Source: an uncultured Oscillospiraceae bacterium (lineage in GTDB: Bacteria > Bacillota > Clostridia > Oscillospirales > Oscillospiraceae). From it: a DNA stretch of 56,388 bases. The notes beneath the pieces were generated by a model. The model saw only the letters and a program-made list of their open reading frames with translations. It was not told where the DNA came from and did no database searches. Positions within the stretch are counted from its first letter, which is position 1; the number at the start of each line of letters is the position of its first letter. The DNA lies in assembly GCA_947632155.1 (NCBI GenBank), contig CANROF010000009.1:1-56388 (forward strand). Reading direction: 5' to 3'. Shown one piece after another: positions 4,351-56,388 of the stretch. The position numbers were made by a program, and so were the translations under genes.

Positions 4351-6039
4351 TTGGTACATTCGATAGACGCCGCGCTTTTCAAATCAATGATCATCTCCGG
4401 CGCGGCACTTCTTGAGCAGCACAAGCAGCAGATAAACGAGCTGAACGTCTTCCCCGTCCCCGACGGGGACACCGGCACCAACATGAGCCTCACCATGGGC
4501 TCCGGCGTCACGGCGCTGCAGGCCCATGAGTACGAGACAGTCACCGCCGTGGCGGACGCCGTGGCCAGCGCCCTCCTGCGGGGGGCCCGGGGCAACTCCG
4601 GCGTCATCCTCTCCCTCCTTTTCCGGGGCATCGGCAAGAGCCTGAAGGAGAAGCGCGTCTGCACCGCCGCGGACCTGGCCGCCGCCCTCACCCGCGGGGT
4701 GGAGGTGGCCTACAAGGCCGTCATGCGCCCCACGGAGGGCACCATCCTCACCGTCTCCCGTGTCTCGGCGGAGGCCGCCCGGGCCTACGTGGAGTCCGGG
4801 GAGGACTTAGAGGAGCTTTTCGACAGGATGCTCTCCGCCGGGGACGAGGCCCTGGCCGGCACCACGGAGCAAAACCCCGTCCTCAAAAAGGCCGGCGTGG
4901 TGGACGCCGGAGGCAAGGGGTATCTCTACATCCTCCGGGGGATGCTCTCCGCCCTCCTGGGCCACCCCGTGGAGCACACGGGGTCTGAGGACGAGCCGGA
5001 GAACACCGCGGACTTCGCCGCCATGGGGGACGAGGAGATCACTTTCGCCTTTGACACCGTCTTCATCGTCCGGAAAAACCACCCGGACGTGGATCTGGAC
5101 CCCTTCCGGGAGTACCTGAGCTCCATCGGCGATTCCCTCGTCATCGGCGAGGACGACGAGGCCTTCAAGGTCCACGTACATACCAACACCCCCGGCGACG
5201 CCCTGAACGCCGCCCAGCAGTACGGCACTCTGGAGCTTGCGAAGATCGAGAACATGGTCACCCAGCGCGACGACCTGGCCGCCGGGCGCAAGGCCCAGTC
5301 CACCGACGACCTGGCCCAGGTGGAAAAGGAGCTGGAGGCCATGGAGAGCGAGTCCCCGGAGCCCGTGGACGTGCCCCCGGAGCGCCGCTACGGCCTGGTG
5401 GCCGTCTGCGCCGGCAGCGGCATGGAGGCGGTCTTTAAAAATCTGGGCGTGGACGCCCTGGTCACCGGCGGCCAGACCATGAACCCCTCCACCGAGGACA
5501 TCCTGCGGGCGGTCCAGACCGTCCCCGCGGAGACGGTCTTTGTCCTGCCCAACAACAAAAACATCATCATGGCCGCCCAACAGTGCGACAGGCTCACGAA
5601 AAAGAACGTGGTGGTCATCCCCTCCAAGACCGTGCCCCAGGGCATCTCGGCCCTGGTGTGCTTTGACGACACCCTCTCCCCCGACGACCTCACCGAGGCC
5701 ATGACCGACGCCTGCGGCACCGTCCACACGGCCCTTGTGACCTACGCGGCCAGGGACTCGGAGTTCGACGGCACGGAGATAAAGGCCGGGGAGTATCTGG
5801 CGCTGCTGGAAAACCAGCTCCTGGCCAGCACCTCGGACCTGGCGCAGCTCATCGGCGGCATCGCCGACGCCGTCCGGGACTTCGACCCCGAGGTCCTCAC
5901 CGTCTTTTACGGCGAGGACGTCAGCGAGGAGGCCGCCCGGGCCGTGGAGGAGAAGCTGGCCGCCCTCTTCCCCGACGCCGACATCCAGCTCATCTCCGGC
6001 GGCCAACCCGTATACTACTACATGATCTCTGCGGAATAA
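4351..6039 (+). CDS. fakA: DAK2-domain fatty acid kinase catalytic subunit
   Basis: FakA/YloV-type protein: an ATP-binding DAK2 domain (residues about 10-200) with the signatures VPDGDTGTNMSLTM and RGARGNSGVI, a middle domain, and a C-terminal DegV-like half ending QPVYYYMISAE. With a DegV-type FakB as acyl carrier it phosphorylates fatty acids for phospholipid synthesis; a degV gene lies at 12772-13644. The most likely start is TTG at 4351, with GGAGGAGAG about 6 bases before it; an ATG at 4336 would overlap the asp23 stop but has no site. Length is 562 residues, normal for the family. The transcript extends through a composite repeat to a terminator at 6248. Confidence 0.92.
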   Translation: MVHSIDAALFKSMIISGAALLEQHKQQINELNVFPVPDGDTGTNMSLTMGSGVTALQAHEYETVTAVADAVASALLRGARGNSGVILSLLFRGIGKSLKEKRVCTAADLAAALTRGVEVAYKAVMRPTEGTILTVSRVSAEAARAYVESGEDLEELFDRMLSAGDEALAGTTEQNPVLKKAGVVDAGGKGYLYILRGMLSALLGHPVEHTGSEDEPENTADFAAMGDEEITFAFDTVFIVRKNHPDVDLDPFREYLSSIGDSLVIGEDDEAFKVHVHTNTPGDALNAAQQYGTLELAKIENMVTQRDDLAAGRKAQSTDDLAQVEKELEAMESESPEPVDVPPERRYGLVAVCAGSGMEAVFKNLGVDALVTGGQTMNPSTEDILRAVQTVPAETVFVLPNNKNIIMAAQQCDRLTKKNVVVIPSKTVPQGISALVCFDDTLSPDDLTEAMTDACGTVHTALVTYAARDSEFDGTEIKAGEYLALLENQLLASTSDLAQLIGGIADAVRDFDPEVLTVFYGEDVSEEAARAVEEKLAALFPDADIQLISGGQPVYYYMISAE

Positions 6040-6041
6040 AA

Positions 6042-6235
6042 CTGGCTCGAAAGCCCTGACGGGCTTTCGATGCCAAAGGATACGTGCGGGCCTCCATGGG
6101 TGAATTCTGCGGAATTCACCCATGGAGGCCCTGCTGTTTTGCTCCGCGCACGGCCCCCTGGGCCGCACACTCCGCAAAACAAAAGGGATTTTTTCCGACG
6201 CGCATGTCGTCGGAAAAAATATTGAATCGGAGTTT
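6042..6235 (+). repeat. Composite four-hairpin element, copy 1
   Basis: Starts 2 bases after the fakA stop. In order: hairpin i (CTCGAAAGCCC/GGGCTTTCGA, 6046-6070), linker ATGCCAAAGG, hairpin ii (18-bp stem opening GCCTCCATGGGTGAATTC, 6090-6129), hairpin iii (outer stem GTTTTGC/GCAAAAC enclosing a CGGCCC/GGGCCG stem, 6136-6180), linker AAAAGGGA, hairpin iv (ATTTTTTCCGACG stem, 6188-6220), then TATTGAAT. Related copies are at 25066, 34757 and 36192. It lies between the stop codon and a terminator, so it is transcribed as the fakA 3' untranslated region. Confidence 0.85.
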
Positions 6236-6247
6236 GAAAAAATGGAA

Positions 6248-24101: not shown

Positions 24102-25064
24102 ATGAATGAGATTTTGAAAACCATTTCCAACATCGGTATCGTCCCCGTCGTGGCTATTGAGGACGCCAAAAAGGCCGTGCCTCTGGCAAAGGCCCTGGTG
24201 GCCGGCGGCCTCCCCACCGCCGAGATCACGTTCCGCACCGCCGCGGCGGAGGACGCCATGCGCGCCATCGCCGCCGAGGTCCCCGAGATGCTCATCGGCG
24301 CCGGCACCGTCCTCACTCCCGATCAGCTCGACCGGGCCCTGGACGCCGGCAGCAAATTCATCGTCTCCCCCGGCTTCAACCCGGATATGGTGAAATACGG
24401 CCTTTCCAAGGGCGCCCTGATGCTCCCCGGCACCGCCACCGGCGGCGAGATGGAGCAGGCCATGGCCCTTGGGCTCGACGTGGTGAAATTCTTCCCCGCC
24501 GAGCAGAACGGCGGCATCGCCAAGATCAAGGCCCTGGCGGGACCCTACAAGAAGCTCAAATGGATGCCCACCGGCGGCGTCACCACCAAGAATCTGATGG
24601 ATTACCTCTCCTTCGACCAGATCGTGGCCTGCGGCGGCACCTGGATGGTGAAGTCCGACCTCATCGAGAACGAGAAGTGGGACGAGATCACCGCCATCTG
24701 CAAGGACGCCGTAAAGACCATGCTGGGCCTTCAGCTCATGCACGTGGGCGTCAACTGCGCCGACCCCGAGGAGGCCGCCAGCGTGGCCCGCTCCTTCGAG
24801 GCCCTCTTCGGCTTCGCCTACAAGCCGGGCAACAGCTCCGACTTCGCCGGGACCTACGTTGAGTGCATGAAGAAGCCCGGCCGCGGCAAGAACGGCCACA
24901 TCGGCATCGGCACCAACAGCGTGGACCGCGCCATGTACCACCTGGGCCGCCAGGGCGTGAAATTCGATGAGAGCTCCATCTCCTACAACGACAAGGGCCA
25001 GGCCAAGAACGTCTACCTCCAGGGCGAGATCGGCGGATTTGCCATCCATGTAATGAAAAAATAA
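24102..25064 (+). CDS. eda: KDPG/KHG aldolase fused to a glyoxalase-like (VOC) domain
   Basis: The N-terminal 210 residues are a full KDPG aldolase, which splits 2-keto-3-deoxy-6-phosphogluconate into pyruvate and glyceraldehyde 3-phosphate. Visible motifs are the Glu of PTAEITFRT, GAGTVLT, FIVSPGFNPDMVK, the Schiff-base lysine in DVVKFFPAEQ and WMPTGGV. After a linker, residues about 215-320 (LQLMHVGVNC to GGFAIHVMKK) look like a VOC/glyoxalase-type domain. The extra domain could bind a metal and a keto-acid, but its role is unknown. AGGAGGG precedes the ATG. This is the last catabolic step of the operon's pathway. Confidence 0.92.
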   Translation: MNEILKTISNIGIVPVVAIEDAKKAVPLAKALVAGGLPTAEITFRTAAAEDAMRAIAAEVPEMLIGAGTVLTPDQLDRALDAGSKFIVSPGFNPDMVKYGLSKGALMLPGTATGGEMEQAMALGLDVVKFFPAEQNGGIAKIKALAGPYKKLKWMPTGGVTTKNLMDYLSFDQIVACGGTWMVKSDLIENEKWDEITAICKDAVKTMLGLQLMHVGVNCADPEEAASVARSFEALFGFAYKPGNSSDFAGTYVECMKKPGRGKNGHIGIGTNSVDRAMYHLGRQGVKFDESSISYNDKGQAKNVYLQGEIGGFAIHVMKK

Positions 25065-25065
25065 T

Positions 25066-25305
25066 CTGGCTTTGAAGGGCTTCGCCCTTCAAATGCCAAA
25101 GGGGATCTGCCGGTCCCCTGCGCGCGCGGCCTCGTCGTCGCACGAGCCGCTTTACTTCGCCCTTCCTTCGGTCGGGCTCAGGCGCAGGCTCGGCTCCTCC
25201 TCTCCCCACGCAATCGCAGATTGCGCGGGGACCCCATGCCGCACACTCCGGGGACCTGAAAGGGATTTTTTGCGACGCGCATGTCGCCGCAAAAAATATA
25301 AATTT
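25066..25305 (+). repeat. Composite hairpin element, copy 2 (divergent centre)
   Basis: Begins 1 base after the eda stop. Hairpin i has become TTTGAAGGGC/GCCCTTCAAA, the linker is ATGCCAAAGG as in the other copies, and hairpin iv reads ATTTTTTGCGACG with its complement. The central part is about 50 bases longer and different: GGTCCCC/GGGGACC ends enclose smaller GC-rich hairpins. The pieces CCGCACACTCC and AAAGGGATTTTTT are kept. It lies between eda and kdgK within the operon, so it would be transcribed. Confidence 0.8.
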
Positions 25306-25361
25306 TATTCGCGTCTGCGGACGCGAAATCTGCGATGCTTAAAAAGGAGAAATTGAAATTT

Positions 25362-34723: not shown

Positions 34724-34756
34724 AAAATTGCCTCCTTATGAGAATATCACAAACCC

Positions 34757-34943
34757 AAATTCAATATTTTTTCCGGCGACCTGCGCGTCGGAAAAAATAC
34801 CTTTTGTTTTGCGGAGTGTGCGGCCCTGCGGGCCGTGCGCGCAGCAAAACAGCAGGAAAATAATTCTGAATTTCGCAAAATTCAGAATTATTTTTCGCAC
34901 GTTCCCTTATGGCATCGAAAGCCCGTCAGGGCTTTCGAGCCAG
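34757..34943 (-). repeat. Composite four-hairpin element, copy 3
   Basis: Read on the minus strand it has hairpin i (CTCGAAAGCCC/GGGCTTTCGA), linker ATGCCATAAGG, hairpin ii (AATAATTCTGAATTTTG paired with its complement), hairpin iii (GTTTTGC outer stem enclosing CGGCCC/GGGCCG) and hairpin iv (TTTTTTCCGACG), ending AATATTGAAT. Hairpin i lies inside the 3' end of galK; the remaining hairpins separate galK from galE. Its TAA in the linker serves as the galK stop. Confidence 0.85.
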
Positions 34944-36172
34944 CTATCGATTTTGCATCCGCCCACGGGGCGGATGTGGAGTATGTGGCACCGGCCGGGG
35001 CCGAAGACGGCCTCGATGCCGGATTTGAACGCGGGGACCAGCTCCTCGGGGACGAACGCCTGGACCGTCCCGGCAAAACCGCCGCCGTGGACCCGGACGG
35101 CACCCCGGCCCCGGAGCAGCCGCCGCGACAGGGCGATGGCCAAATTCACCGCCTGGGCCGCGGGGTGGGAGACGGACCAGATATTCTGCAAAAGGGACTC
35201 CGAGGACCGGCCGGAGGCGTTGACCAGGCGCAAAAACGCCTCAAAATCGCCCTTTTTCAGCGCCTCGGCCTCCTCAATGGCCCGCCGGTCGTCGTCGTAG
35301 AAGTGCATGGCGCGTAAGACCGCCCGGTCGCCGCATTTCTCCCGCAGGGCGGGGACGGCGGCCATAAAATCCGCCTCCGGCACGTCCCGGAGCCATTTCT
35401 GGCCGAAATGGGCCGCCACGGCGCCCATCTCGCCGGTTATCGCGGCGTAGTCGCCGGTGAGGTCCGCGTGGTCGGAGGCCGTGTCGATGATGCACAGCGC
35501 GTGGCCGGAGGCCGCGAAGTCGTAGTGGATGGCCTCCACCACGGGATTGGCCGGGTCGGCGAAATCTATGGCAACCGCGCCGCCCACGCTGGAGCCCATC
35601 TGGTCCATGAGGCCGCAGGGCTTGCCGAAGTGGACGTTTTCGGCGTACTGGCCGATTTTGGCGATGTCCACGGGGGTCAGCGCCCCGCCGCAGTAAAATT
35701 CGTTAAAGATATTCCCCATCAGCACCTCATAGGCCGCAGAGGAGGAAAGGCCGGAGCCGGACAGCACCGCGGACACGGCGCAGGCGTCAAAGCCCCGGAG
35801 GGCAAAGCCCCGCTTTTTAATCCCCTCCGCCACGCCGCGGATGAGGGCGGCGGAGGTGCCCCGCTGGGCCTCCTTCGGCGTCAGGTCCGAAAGGTCCAGC
35901 TCGATGGCCGGGTAGCCGGCGCTGAGCACCCGGACGGTATTCGTGCCGTTGGGGGCGGCGCAGGCCAAAATGTCCATGTCCACGCTGCCGCACAGCACGT
36001 GTCCGTGCTGGTGGTCGGTGTGGTTTCCCCCCAGCTCCGTCCTCCCGGGGCCGGAGAAGAGCCCCGCGCCGGAGGCGTCGCCGAAGGTATTTATAAAATC
36101 CCGCGCCAGCGCCGCCTCGCGGCCCCGGCCGGGGGTGGATTCCAATTTCAAAAGCAGCTCATTTGCCGTCAT
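34907..36172 (-). CDS. galK: Galactokinase
   Basis: Phosphorylates galactose with ATP. The 421-residue GHMP kinase has the galactokinase signature as GRTELGGNHTDHQHG, the ATP motif GSGLSSSAAYEV and the third motif HGGGFAGTVQAF. The ATG at 36172 follows AAAGGTGA; a GTG three codons earlier has no site. The native end is probably near RPVGGCKID; the last residues SWLESPDGLSMP are encoded by hairpin i of the composite element, whose linker also provides the stop codon. This tail is unlikely to disturb the fold. Another element copy lies directly upstream. Confidence 0.94.
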   Translation of the reverse strand: MTANELLLKLESTPGRGREAALARDFINTFGDASGAGLFSGPGRTELGGNHTDHQHGHVLCGSVDMDILACAAPNGTNTVRVLSAGYPAIELDLSDLTPKEAQRGTSAALIRGVAEGIKKRGFALRGFDACAVSAVLSGSGLSSSAAYEVLMGNIFNEFYCGGALTPVDIAKIGQYAENVHFGKPCGLMDQMGSSVGGAVAIDFADPANPVVEAIHYDFAASGHALCIIDTASDHADLTGDYAAITGEMGAVAAHFGQKWLRDVPEADFMAAVPALREKCGDRAVLRAMHFYDDDRRAIEEAEALKKGDFEAFLRLVNASGRSSESLLQNIWSVSHPAAQAVNLAIALSRRLLRGRGAVRVHGGGFAGTVQAFVPEELVPAFKSGIEAVFGPGRCHILHIRPVGGCKIDSWLESPDGLSMP

Positions 36173-36191
36173 ATGGTTCACCTTTCAAAAA

Positions 36192-36380
36192 ACTCAAACT
36201 CAATATTTTTCCCGGCGGCATGCACGTCGGGAAAAATCCCTTTTGTTTTGCGGAGTGTGCGGCCCTGCGGGCCGTGCGCGCAGCAAAACGGCAGGGAAAA
36301 TATTCTGAATTTCGCAAAATTCAGAATATTTTTCCGCACGCATCCTTTGGCATCGAAAGCCCTACGGGCTTTCGAGCCAG
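36192..36380 (-). repeat. Composite four-hairpin element, copy 4
   Basis: On the minus strand: hairpin i CTCGAAAGCCC/GGGCTTTCGA, linker ATGCCAAAGG, hairpin ii built on ATATTCTGAATTTTG, hairpin iii with GTTTTGC/GCAAAAC ends, linker AAAGGGA, hairpin iv TTTTTCCCGACG with G-C changes on both sides of the stem, then AATATTGAG. It fills the space between the msmX terminator and the galK ribosome site. Confidence 0.85.
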
Positions 36381-36385
36381 CGTAA

Positions 36386-36415
36386 GTAAAAGGGCTGCCC
36401 TGGGGCAGCCCCTTT
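36386..36415 (-). terminator. Rho-independent terminator of msmX
   Basis: Minus-strand stem AAGGGGCTGCCC/GGGCAGCCCTT followed by TTTACTTAC. Confidence 0.75.
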
Positions 36416-36434: not shown

Positions 36435-37589
36435 TTAGAACTTGTAGCTCTTGCAGACGGGGGCGCAGGCGTCCGCGGACTCCTTGTCGTACCACACTAA
36501 GTTGTTTCCAGTCTCCTTGTCGAAGAGCTGGATGAGCTTGGGGGCAGTTGTGAAGTTGACGGTGGCGCCCATGCTGACGTCCACGGTGAGGTCCACGGTG
36601 GGGATCACCATGACGACCTCGTCATGCTCGGAACGGGCGTGGAGGTTGACCTCGGAGCCCAGCATCTCGTTGACCTCGATGGTGGCCTTCAGGTCGCCGG
36701 AGCCGACGGTGATGTGCTGGGGACGGATGCCGCAGACGATGTCGCAGGGCTGCTGGCCGTTTGCTTTAAGGGCCTTCTGCTGGAACTCATCAAGCTCAAA
36801 CTTGGCGTTGCGGATCTGAGCGTAGTACTTGCCGCCCTCCAAAAGGAGCTTGCAGTTGTCGAAGAAGTTCATAACAGGCATTCCGATGAAGCCAGCCACA
36901 AACAGGTTCACGGGCTTGTCGAACACTTCGACGGGGGTACCGATCTGGTTTACGAAGCCGTCCTTCATGATGACGATACGATCGCCCAGGGTCATAGCCT
37001 CGGTCTGGTCGTGGGTAACATACATGAAGGTGGTGTTGATGCGCTGACGGAGCTTGATGATCTCAGCGCGCATCTGGTTGCGGAGCTTTGCGTCGAGGTT
37101 GGAAAGGGGCTCGTCCATGAGGAAGACCTTGGGGTCACGGACCATCGCGCGGCCTATGGCCACACGCTGTCTCTGGCCGCCGGAGAGGGCCTTGGGCTTG
37201 CGCTCAAGATACTGGGTGATGTCCAGGATCTGCGCAACCTCGCGGACCTTCTTGTCGATCTCCGCCTTCGGCGTCTTCTTGAGCTTCAGCGCGAAGGCCA
37301 TGTTGTCATAGACGGTCATGTGGGGGTAAAGTGCGTAGGACTGGAATACCATGGCGATGTCGCGATCCTTGGGCTCTACGTTGTTGCACAGCTTCCCGTC
37401 GATGTAGAGCTCGCCGCCGGAGATCTCCTCAAGCCCGGCCACCATACGAAGCGTGGTGGATTTTCCGCAGCCGGAGGGGCCGACCAGAACGATGAACTCC
37501 TTGTCCGCGATGTGAAGGTTCACATCGTGCACCGCCGTGACGCTGTTGTCGTAGACCTTTTTGAGATTTTTCAGGATGACCTCGGACAT
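36435..37589 (-). CDS. msmX: MsmX/UgpC-type sugar ABC transporter ATP-binding protein
   Basis: A 384-residue ATPase of the CUT1 importer group, which can serve several sugar permeases in Firmicutes. Walker [10 protein letters not shown], signature [14 protein letters not shown], Walker [13 protein letters not shown] and the TOBE-type C-terminal regulatory domain (about 240-384) are present. No permease or binding-protein genes are in the window, so it probably works with importers elsewhere, perhaps for galacto-oligosaccharides given the flanking GH53 and gal genes. The ATG at 37589 fits the family start but has only a weak ribosome site; a perfect AAGGAGG lies 119 bases upstream. Confidence 0.93.
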
Positions 37590-37836
37590 GTTTTGCTCGT
37601 TCAAGCGCAATGTTGAACATACAGTGCGCCTCGCCCCGGACCCGAGGGCCCGAGAGCATTACGACACGTCTCCACAGTGCCGCACCCGGAACGTGCGGGA
37701 TTTTTTTACCTCCTTTTTGATGTACGGCCAAACATTTTTGTGGAGTGCCTGACCGCCATGAAAATAATGTATACCAACGCCGTTTTCCGGCGGTGATACC
37801 TATTGCAATTATAGCAAAGCCGCGCAAATAACTCAA
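37590..37836 (-). promoter_or_regulatory. msmX promoter and long structured leader
   Basis: On the minus strand TTGAGT (37836-37831), 17-base spacer, TATAAT (37813-37808). The roughly 210-base leader contains hairpins CGCCG/CGGCG, CCGCAC/GTGCGG and GTTCAA/TTGAAC (just before the start), plus a possible CTCCACA/TGTGGAG long-range pairing. AAGGAGG at 37715-37709 is followed by a stop and no start codon at normal distance. Confidence 0.6.
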
Positions 37837-56315: not shown

Positions 56316-56388
56316 GTCGGCTAAGTCAGTGGGATTACTCCCGCTTTCTCGCCTGAGAACCGTACATGACAGTTTCCCATCATACGGC
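56316..56388 (-). mobile_element. Group II intron 3' end (domains V and VI), partial
   Basis: On the minus strand GCCGTATGATGG-GAAA-CTGTCATGTACGGTTC (56388-56357) is a domain V hairpin: catalytic GC...CGUAUG arm, GAAA loop and GUACGGUUC closing arm. It is followed by a domain VI-like stem with GGGAGTAATCCC, an unpaired A seven bases from the proposed end, and a terminal AC at 56316. The reverse-transcriptase part would lie outside the window. Confidence 0.75.

Follow-up and report, generated by a model that had tools for sequence, protein, structure and literature searches.

MITE-like hairpin elements of gut Oscillospiraceae with IS1182-type ends and a probable habit of insertion into palindromes

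Introduction

Insertion into hairpins is known from the IS1182 family. IS1272, a member of that family, inserts into hairpins, several of them confirmed terminators, and the hairpin is deleted or replaced with no duplication; some IS1182 members target palindromes according to a review cited in the same two papers (PMC4923244 and PMC5678879, in the parts cited here). The BOX elements of Streptococcus pneumoniae are modular repeats of 67-637 bp with predicted stem-loops, 125 of them in one genome; they have inverted repeats and target duplications, are over-represented in intervals between convergent genes, and have ends somewhat similar to those of ISSpn2 (PMC3049150, in part). Abundant intergenic palindromes are also found as the REP/BIME sequences associated with RAYT. 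Duplications of >15 bp occur in some members of the IS1202 family (PMC10132070, in part).

The repeat family described here has four copies in a window of 56,388 nt (the whole stretch of DNA analysed) from an uncultured Oscillospiraceae bacterium. It shares hairpin targeting with IS1182/IS1272, and IS1182 members of related genomes have the element's ends; however, the hairpin that IS1272 removes is here duplicated whole, and the elements encode no transposase. BOX is the nearest analogue in organisation, on a comparison by architecture alone, but belongs to another host, and whole-palindrome duplication is not described for it in the consulted part of PMC3049150. Unlike REP/BIME sequences, the elements have inverted ends and target duplications and adjoin no Y1 genes among the loci examined. 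IS1202, rejected as the mobiliser because its ends and targets differ, is another transposase family with ends 5'-TGT and, for some members, dif-like targets (PMC10132070, in part). The MITE- or BOX-like kind of element is already known; neither this variant nor whole-hairpin duplication as a target habit was found described in the parts of the literature searched, which lie outside ISfinder and the subscription reviews.

Copies in the window

An earlier note, made from the letters of this DNA alone, had recognised four copies of a ~190-bp element composed of up to four hairpins, and all four are found where it placed them or a few bases off (Table 1). A fifth copy was not found in the window, short-word BLAST of the copies against it giving only matches of 12-16 bases. 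The covariance-model search that the note had set as a check, carried out with a model (R1) built from 34 copies, returns at least 143 matches in the 2.5-Mb genome (150 candidates scored of 1469 first-look places), which excludes chance. Nor does any named family emerge, in agreement with the note: comparison with Rfam gives no match at the gathering score, and 14 low-score matches below it.

Table 1. Repeat copies, their parts and other features located in the window
Feature	Position	Strand	R1 match	Remark
Copy 1, type A (hairpin i stem TGGC-T-CGAAAGCCC)	6042..6235	+	6038-6236	
Copy 1 hairpin i	6042..6075	+		fold
Copy 1 hairpin ii	6088..6131	+		core GAATTCTGCGGAATTC; outer stem specific to copy
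Copy 1 hairpin iii	6136..6180	+		GTTTTGC/GCAAAAC; internal loop GCGCAC / GCACACTCC conserved
Copy 1 hairpin iv	6189..6219	+		TTTTTTCCGACG/CGTCGGAAAAAA
Copy 2 (hairpins i, iii, iv)	25066..25305	+	25062-25313	orthologous sites full, hairpin-i-only or empty
Hairpin v	25308..25327	+		TTCGCGTC/GACGCGAA, then TCTGCGA.GC; by eye
Copy 3, type A	34757..34943	-	34750-34947	empty sites L094, L098, L108
Copy 3 hairpin i and linker	34907..34943	-		last ~12 codons and stop of galactokinase ORF 34907-36181
Copy 4, type A	36192..36380	-	36189-36384	upstream of galactokinase; empty sites L095-L097 retain hairpin
Terminator-like hairpin adjoining copy 4	36392..36412	-		single hairpin at empty orthologous sites
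malK-I RNA	37584..37763	-		
Cut-off end of group II intron	56316..56388	-		contig end

The hairpin order proposed as common to the four copies holds overall and fails in copy 2, which is without hairpin ii, has GGTCCCC/GGGGACC as its hairpin iii stem, and carries ~100 additional bases in the hairpin iii loop; the orthologous sites L124 and L132 have the short form. Hairpin ii had been thought to be exchanged outright between copies. It is the outer stem that is replaced, whereas the loop core GAATTYTGCGRAATTC is common to copies 1, 3 and 4. Similarly, a position just 3' of a stop codon is correct for copies 1 and 2 but not for copy 3, which overlaps an ORF, or for copy 4, which starts 54 bases past the stop and beyond a terminator-like hairpin. 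By Pfam, the gene upstream of copy 1 is FakA/DAK2-like, KDPG-aldolase and PfkB genes flank copy 2, and galactokinase and epimerase genes flank copy 3. In none of the four copies of the window were IS1182-type ends observed.

Copy 3 enters the protein. Its linker (ATGCCATAAGG) forms the TAA stop of the galactokinase gene and the copy adds the tail SWLESPDGLSMP; at most of the 20 relatives' loci compared the protein ends ~12 residues earlier. On this comparison copy 3 is an instance of codons and a stop being supplied to a protein by a repeat.

Element anatomy

Elements are mostly ~190-260 bp, partial copies being shorter. Hairpin i exists in two types: in type B it carries the left end, CAGYYTGTCGAAAAAGCCC, and in type A it is a variant stem starting CTGGCT. 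There follow the linker (A)AGGGGAACGTGCGG, hairpin ii, in which the loop core is mostly constant and the outer stem free, hairpin iii, in which the outer stem is again free and the internal loop conserved, the linker ACAAAAGG, hairpin iv, and finally ATATTGAATTTGAGTTTTTTGACANNCTG. Hairpins are gained, lost and nested, giving copies with hairpin i only, copies with i and iv, and copies with other repeats within hairpin iii, and a local hairpin can replace a missing left end (L062:13254-13449 and L049, by eye). A hairpin similar to hairpin v is present, by eye, in copies of other genera.

Other repeated sequences occur in the same neighbourhoods. A second repeat, which starts at about GATACTAAT and has CCGAGCGGCGAG.ATTTTT within it, lies beside copies or nested inside them at L066:1603-1972, in L327 after ~1525 and in L164 near 1081; its inverted ends in L066 measure ~27 bp (by eye). 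A palindromic unit like CTAAGAGCCGCC..GGCGGTTG..CTCCGAAA.GGCGCCTGCGGGCGC recurs in hairpin iii loops and elsewhere (L072:586-847; L137; L328 at ~2000-2070). At the contig end L329:1-322 (G000:C44 start) the right end of an element stands behind what looks, by eye, like the terminus of a serine recombinase gene. A larger element was considered between end repeats 3.7 kb apart (C64) and rejected, the interval being occupied by other genes, with a lone hairpin i on one side and a truncated copy on the other; solitary ends were examined among ~100 listed of the 195 places with the end pattern described below.

Ends, target duplications and empty sites

The own genome yielded 78 distinct cores, copy 2 being left out, of which 73 have at least 150 bp on each side. 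By a loose end rule (left NNNNNTGTCRR, right TYGACA) both inverted ends are present in 44 of these 73 and one or both are absent from 29; genome-wide, the end pattern occurs at 195 places as against 19 for the reversed pattern. Direct repeats were scored as length minus 3 per mismatch at no more than 5 bases from the ends. A score of at least 7 is reached by 28 of the 44 two-ended copies as against 1.2% among 427 mismatched pairs of flanks, and a score of at least 9 by 23 of the 44 as against none of the 427. The latter 23 repeats are 9-34 bp long, and 17 of them are palindromic (stem of at least 5) compared with 3.6% of 690 background windows; most of the longer direct repeats are whole palindromes. 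An earlier count by local score (at least 14) found a direct repeat at 29 of the 73 copies versus 0.35% of 1439 mismatched pairs, with duplications of up to 39 bp. The same arrangement extends to other genomes of the order, where three of eight copies sit between repeated hairpins (L187, L189, L190).

Empty orthologous sites exist for window copies 2, 3 and 4 and for L002. L215 has a single hairpin where L305 has hairpin-element-hairpin, and L246 has one T/A-rich target where L307 has two. The flank comparison comprises 18 inspected pairs of 44 found, some of the 18 being uninformative (L311/L048) or having other inserted sequence (L176/L231). The copy 2 site was compared at 30 loci: five are full (the own genome included), three have hairpin i only (L125, L127, L134), three have remnants, eight are empty in close relatives, and the remaining 11, more distant or paralogous, have no element. 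Short, multicopy and non-coding by ORF listing, with terminal inverted repeats, target-site duplication, empty sites and IS-like ends, the elements have the properties of MITEs.

IS1182 as candidate mobiliser

IS1634 makes long variable duplications. It was tried as the mobiliser and rejected, passing the cut-off in one genome out of 40, and its weak matches led to IS1182 loci. At four of the ten loci from that weak search (L335, L336, L337, L339) a transposase gene is enclosed by the element's ends at a spacing of 1496-1510 bp, and identical palindromes of 21-31 bp stand on both sides of the IS. Three transposases tested belong to the IS1182 family (NF033551, 371.9-385.1 bits against a curated cut-off of 270), and one of them, scanned against Pfam, has DDE domains. 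Some IS1182-like loci end in CAGCCTGTCGAAAAAG, 16 bases identical to the element's commonest left end; likeness of IS and element is limited to the ~16 terminal bases, none being seen in the interior. At 11 further loci, mostly fragments, the element's end lies beside a hairpin (by eye). Across the order, 9 of 17 IS1182-like loci (five of the 17 from one genome) have palindromic duplications of 20-34 bp, and the other eight examined have no convincing duplication. The habit reaches beyond the same-end subgroup of IS1182: the diverged IS1182 relative L352, whose end differs (AGTCTGTCGACAAAC), likewise shows a palindromic duplication of ~23-25 bp.

Within the genus, the Pfam-scanned protein used as query gives an IS1182 match at E<=1e-10 in 9 of 24 other genomes, six of them having the same-end subgroup (at least 78% identity); by element status the matches fall in 9 of 17 element-positive and 0 of 7 element-negative genomes. 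One genome (G012) has 11 IS1182 pieces, many at contig ends. The own genome has no IS1182 transposase match at E<=1e-10, and its IS may have been lost, may be unassembled, or may have come and gone by transfer. Among 295 genomes of the order, the IS (E<=1e-60) is found in 12, the element in 32 and both in 3 where ~1.3 would be expected, a weak co-occurrence.

Proposed mechanism of spread

The elements are most likely MITE-like non-autonomous transposons with IS1182-type ends that are moved in trans by an IS1182 transposase into palindromes. The ends, with consensus CAGNNTGTCRAAAAA...TTTTTYGACANNCTG, would be recognised by an IS1182-family DDE transposase supplied in trans, and insertion would occur at DNA palindromes, typically terminator-like hairpins 3' of genes. 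If the two target strands were cut near opposite bases of the palindrome, a whole palindrome would be left on each side of the element; selection would then leave copies chiefly behind genes. Type A copies would be older insertions by stop codons in operons whose recognisable ends and duplications have gone and whose stems are maintained as near-perfect DNA palindromes. An unnamed, abundant repeat of gut Oscillospiraceae would thereby gain a likely identity and a likely mobiliser, with hairpins duplicated whole where the best-studied member of the IS1182 family deletes them.

The hairpin iii internal loop and the hairpin iv loop are conserved across genera, which is more than simple mobilisation requires. 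A speculative extension, to be held tentatively, is that insertion is defined by structure: the enzyme of an IS1182 subgroup might read a cruciform or hairpin instead of a sequence and cut at its two bases, a passenger built of palindromes might serve as a renewable landing pad, the loops of hairpins iii and iv might be binding sites for the transposase or for a protein of the host, and the terminators of Oscillospirales might repeatedly have been expanded into long structured 3' regions. If this were true, duplication length would equal palindrome length, and the natural series of substrates makes such a structure-recognition reaction testable.

Stem covariation and position relative to genes

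The earlier note had taken the compensated stem changes as pointing to selection on RNA or single-stranded DNA structure. Compensation itself is confirmed: by RNAalifold on 34 copies from the own genome and relatives, 33 of 50 pairs have both partners altered in one copy or more, none of 500 shuffles of the 3' letters reaches any observed covariation measure, and the share of paired cells drops from 96% to 41-64% when the partners are shifted by 1-3 columns, controls that are favourable to the structure in that the 34 rows were hand-chosen from 36 for near-standard length and the structure came from the same alignment. Such strong covariation, together with the conserved loops of hairpins iii and iv in other genera, is what would be expected of functional 3' UTR RNA modules, active in mRNA processing, stability or termination, for which selection on RNA structure would be primary and mobility incidental.

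The kinds of pairs argue otherwise. In the R1 alignment, with 102 distinct rows of 103, there are 4886 Watson-Crick, 23 G.T, 65 A.C and 34 other cells; these are cells and not independent events, tallied on the repeat copies alone, in an alignment that leans toward the model and of which many rows also served in building R1. Sense-strand RNA selection should favour G.U over A.C, and G.T, at 0.47% of paired cells (23 of 4909), is rarer than A.C, which argues against selection at the RNA level; the compensatory changes of a structured RNA are present and its wobble preference is absent. Hairpin ii holds 59 of the 65 A.C cells, which probably come from a few inherited variants and are not read as antisense selection. 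The stems are instead read, on their pairing pattern, as DNA palindromes that would be young or corrected via their own hairpin, and a single-stranded or cruciform DNA structure is possible as their basis. The near absence of G.T pairs is the hint here, and it carries a warning: bacterial repeats may covary strongly without RNA being the reason.

Orientation might also seem to favour RNA modules. With genes from a simple codon-score caller and 73 copies classed, the 59 type B copies comprise 22 codirectional sense, 9 codirectional antisense, 20 convergent, 2 divergent and 6 not classed, and among the 14 type A copies the upstream gene is on the copy's own strand in 12. Between codirectional genes the bias is 10 to 2 for type A and 22 to 9 for type B. 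A called gene runs through one of the 73 copies, and two of the 73 lie between divergent genes. However, the T-run of hairpin iv is 5', on the wrong side for an intrinsic terminator, and the element is missing from several orthologous sites; with the lack of wobble preference, these points make RNA modules with incidental mobility an unlikely account of the family.

Other origins

Type A copies raise the question of whether the interior is a separate structured unit to which IS1182 ends were attached later in some copies, type A having spread by a route linked to stop codons. Type A is without recognised ends, 9 of the 12 copies with a same-strand upstream gene start at -2 to +3 bases of the gene end, and hairpin i stands alone at three of the sites orthologous to copy 2. 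Yet at one orthologous site the right end GACAGTCTG is shared by L176 of the own genome, whose hairpin i is type B, and by the relative L038, whose hairpin i is type A, so the two types can be variants of a single insertion; in other genera, moreover, copies pair similar ends with the same interior. A separate origin of the interior is accordingly a rather improbable reading.

RNA-mediated, retroposon-like spread by target-primed reverse transcription would account for truncated copies and for duplications of variable length (9-34 bp, up to 39 bp), and at L319 (~4960-5050) a copy that has lost all that precedes the loop of hairpin iv is framed by 13-bp repeats. The L319 junction shows a microhomology of 4 bases, which suggests that deletion would fit as well as truncated insertion, and the inverted ends are those of a DNA transposon that duplicates its target in the same way; such spread is very unlikely.

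The suggestion of the earlier note that the elements are mobile and REP-like stands as to mobility, given the inverted ends, target-site duplications and empty sites, but movement of the palindromes by a Y1 transposase, as in a REP/RAYT system, is hardly credible: Y1_Tnp genes occur in several copy-bearing genomes, with full copies 1.5-1.8 kb from two of them and a partial 27.7-bit match ~0.6 kb from one, yet no full copy adjoins a Y1 gene in 10 loci examined, the copy-rich genomes G005, G006, G011, G015 and G017 have no Y1_Tnp match, and Y1 transposition is not known to produce target duplications. Two further readings, one as a group II intron-like sequence (GTGCG motif, preference for terminators) and one as an integron attC site, were dropped by eye, with Rfam scans only. 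Preference is given to a DNA transposon mobilised by IS1182.

Distribution

BLAST with copy 4 against the own genome gives 63 matches at E<=1 among 40 scored of 180 first-look candidates, some of these being reverse-strand matches of palindromes. Among same-genus relatives 17 of 24 other genomes match by BLAST (G014 weakly), and in other families 1 of 15 genomes. An order-wide R1 search at E<=1e-5, with stricter filters and 8 candidates scored per genome, finds the element in 32 of 295 sampled genomes and 19 of 148 genera, three of the 32 genomes belonging to this genus. The matches outside the genus, among those listed, have ~39-72 bits and are more diverged; the examples L185-L191 retain a left hairpin as well as hairpins iii and iv, with hairpin v added in several. 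Viral contigs searched with an exact pattern and phage records searched by BLAST gave no match. The exact pattern is found in 87 stretches of GTDB contigs, and all 80 of the 80 listed are from rabbit-gut MAGs of uncultured Oscillospiraceae.

The seven element-free genomes of the same genus (G003, G007, G008, G009, G016, G021, G024) are all small, at 1.4-1.9 Mb, and six of the seven have a galactokinase match, to more distant versions with 46-56% identity.
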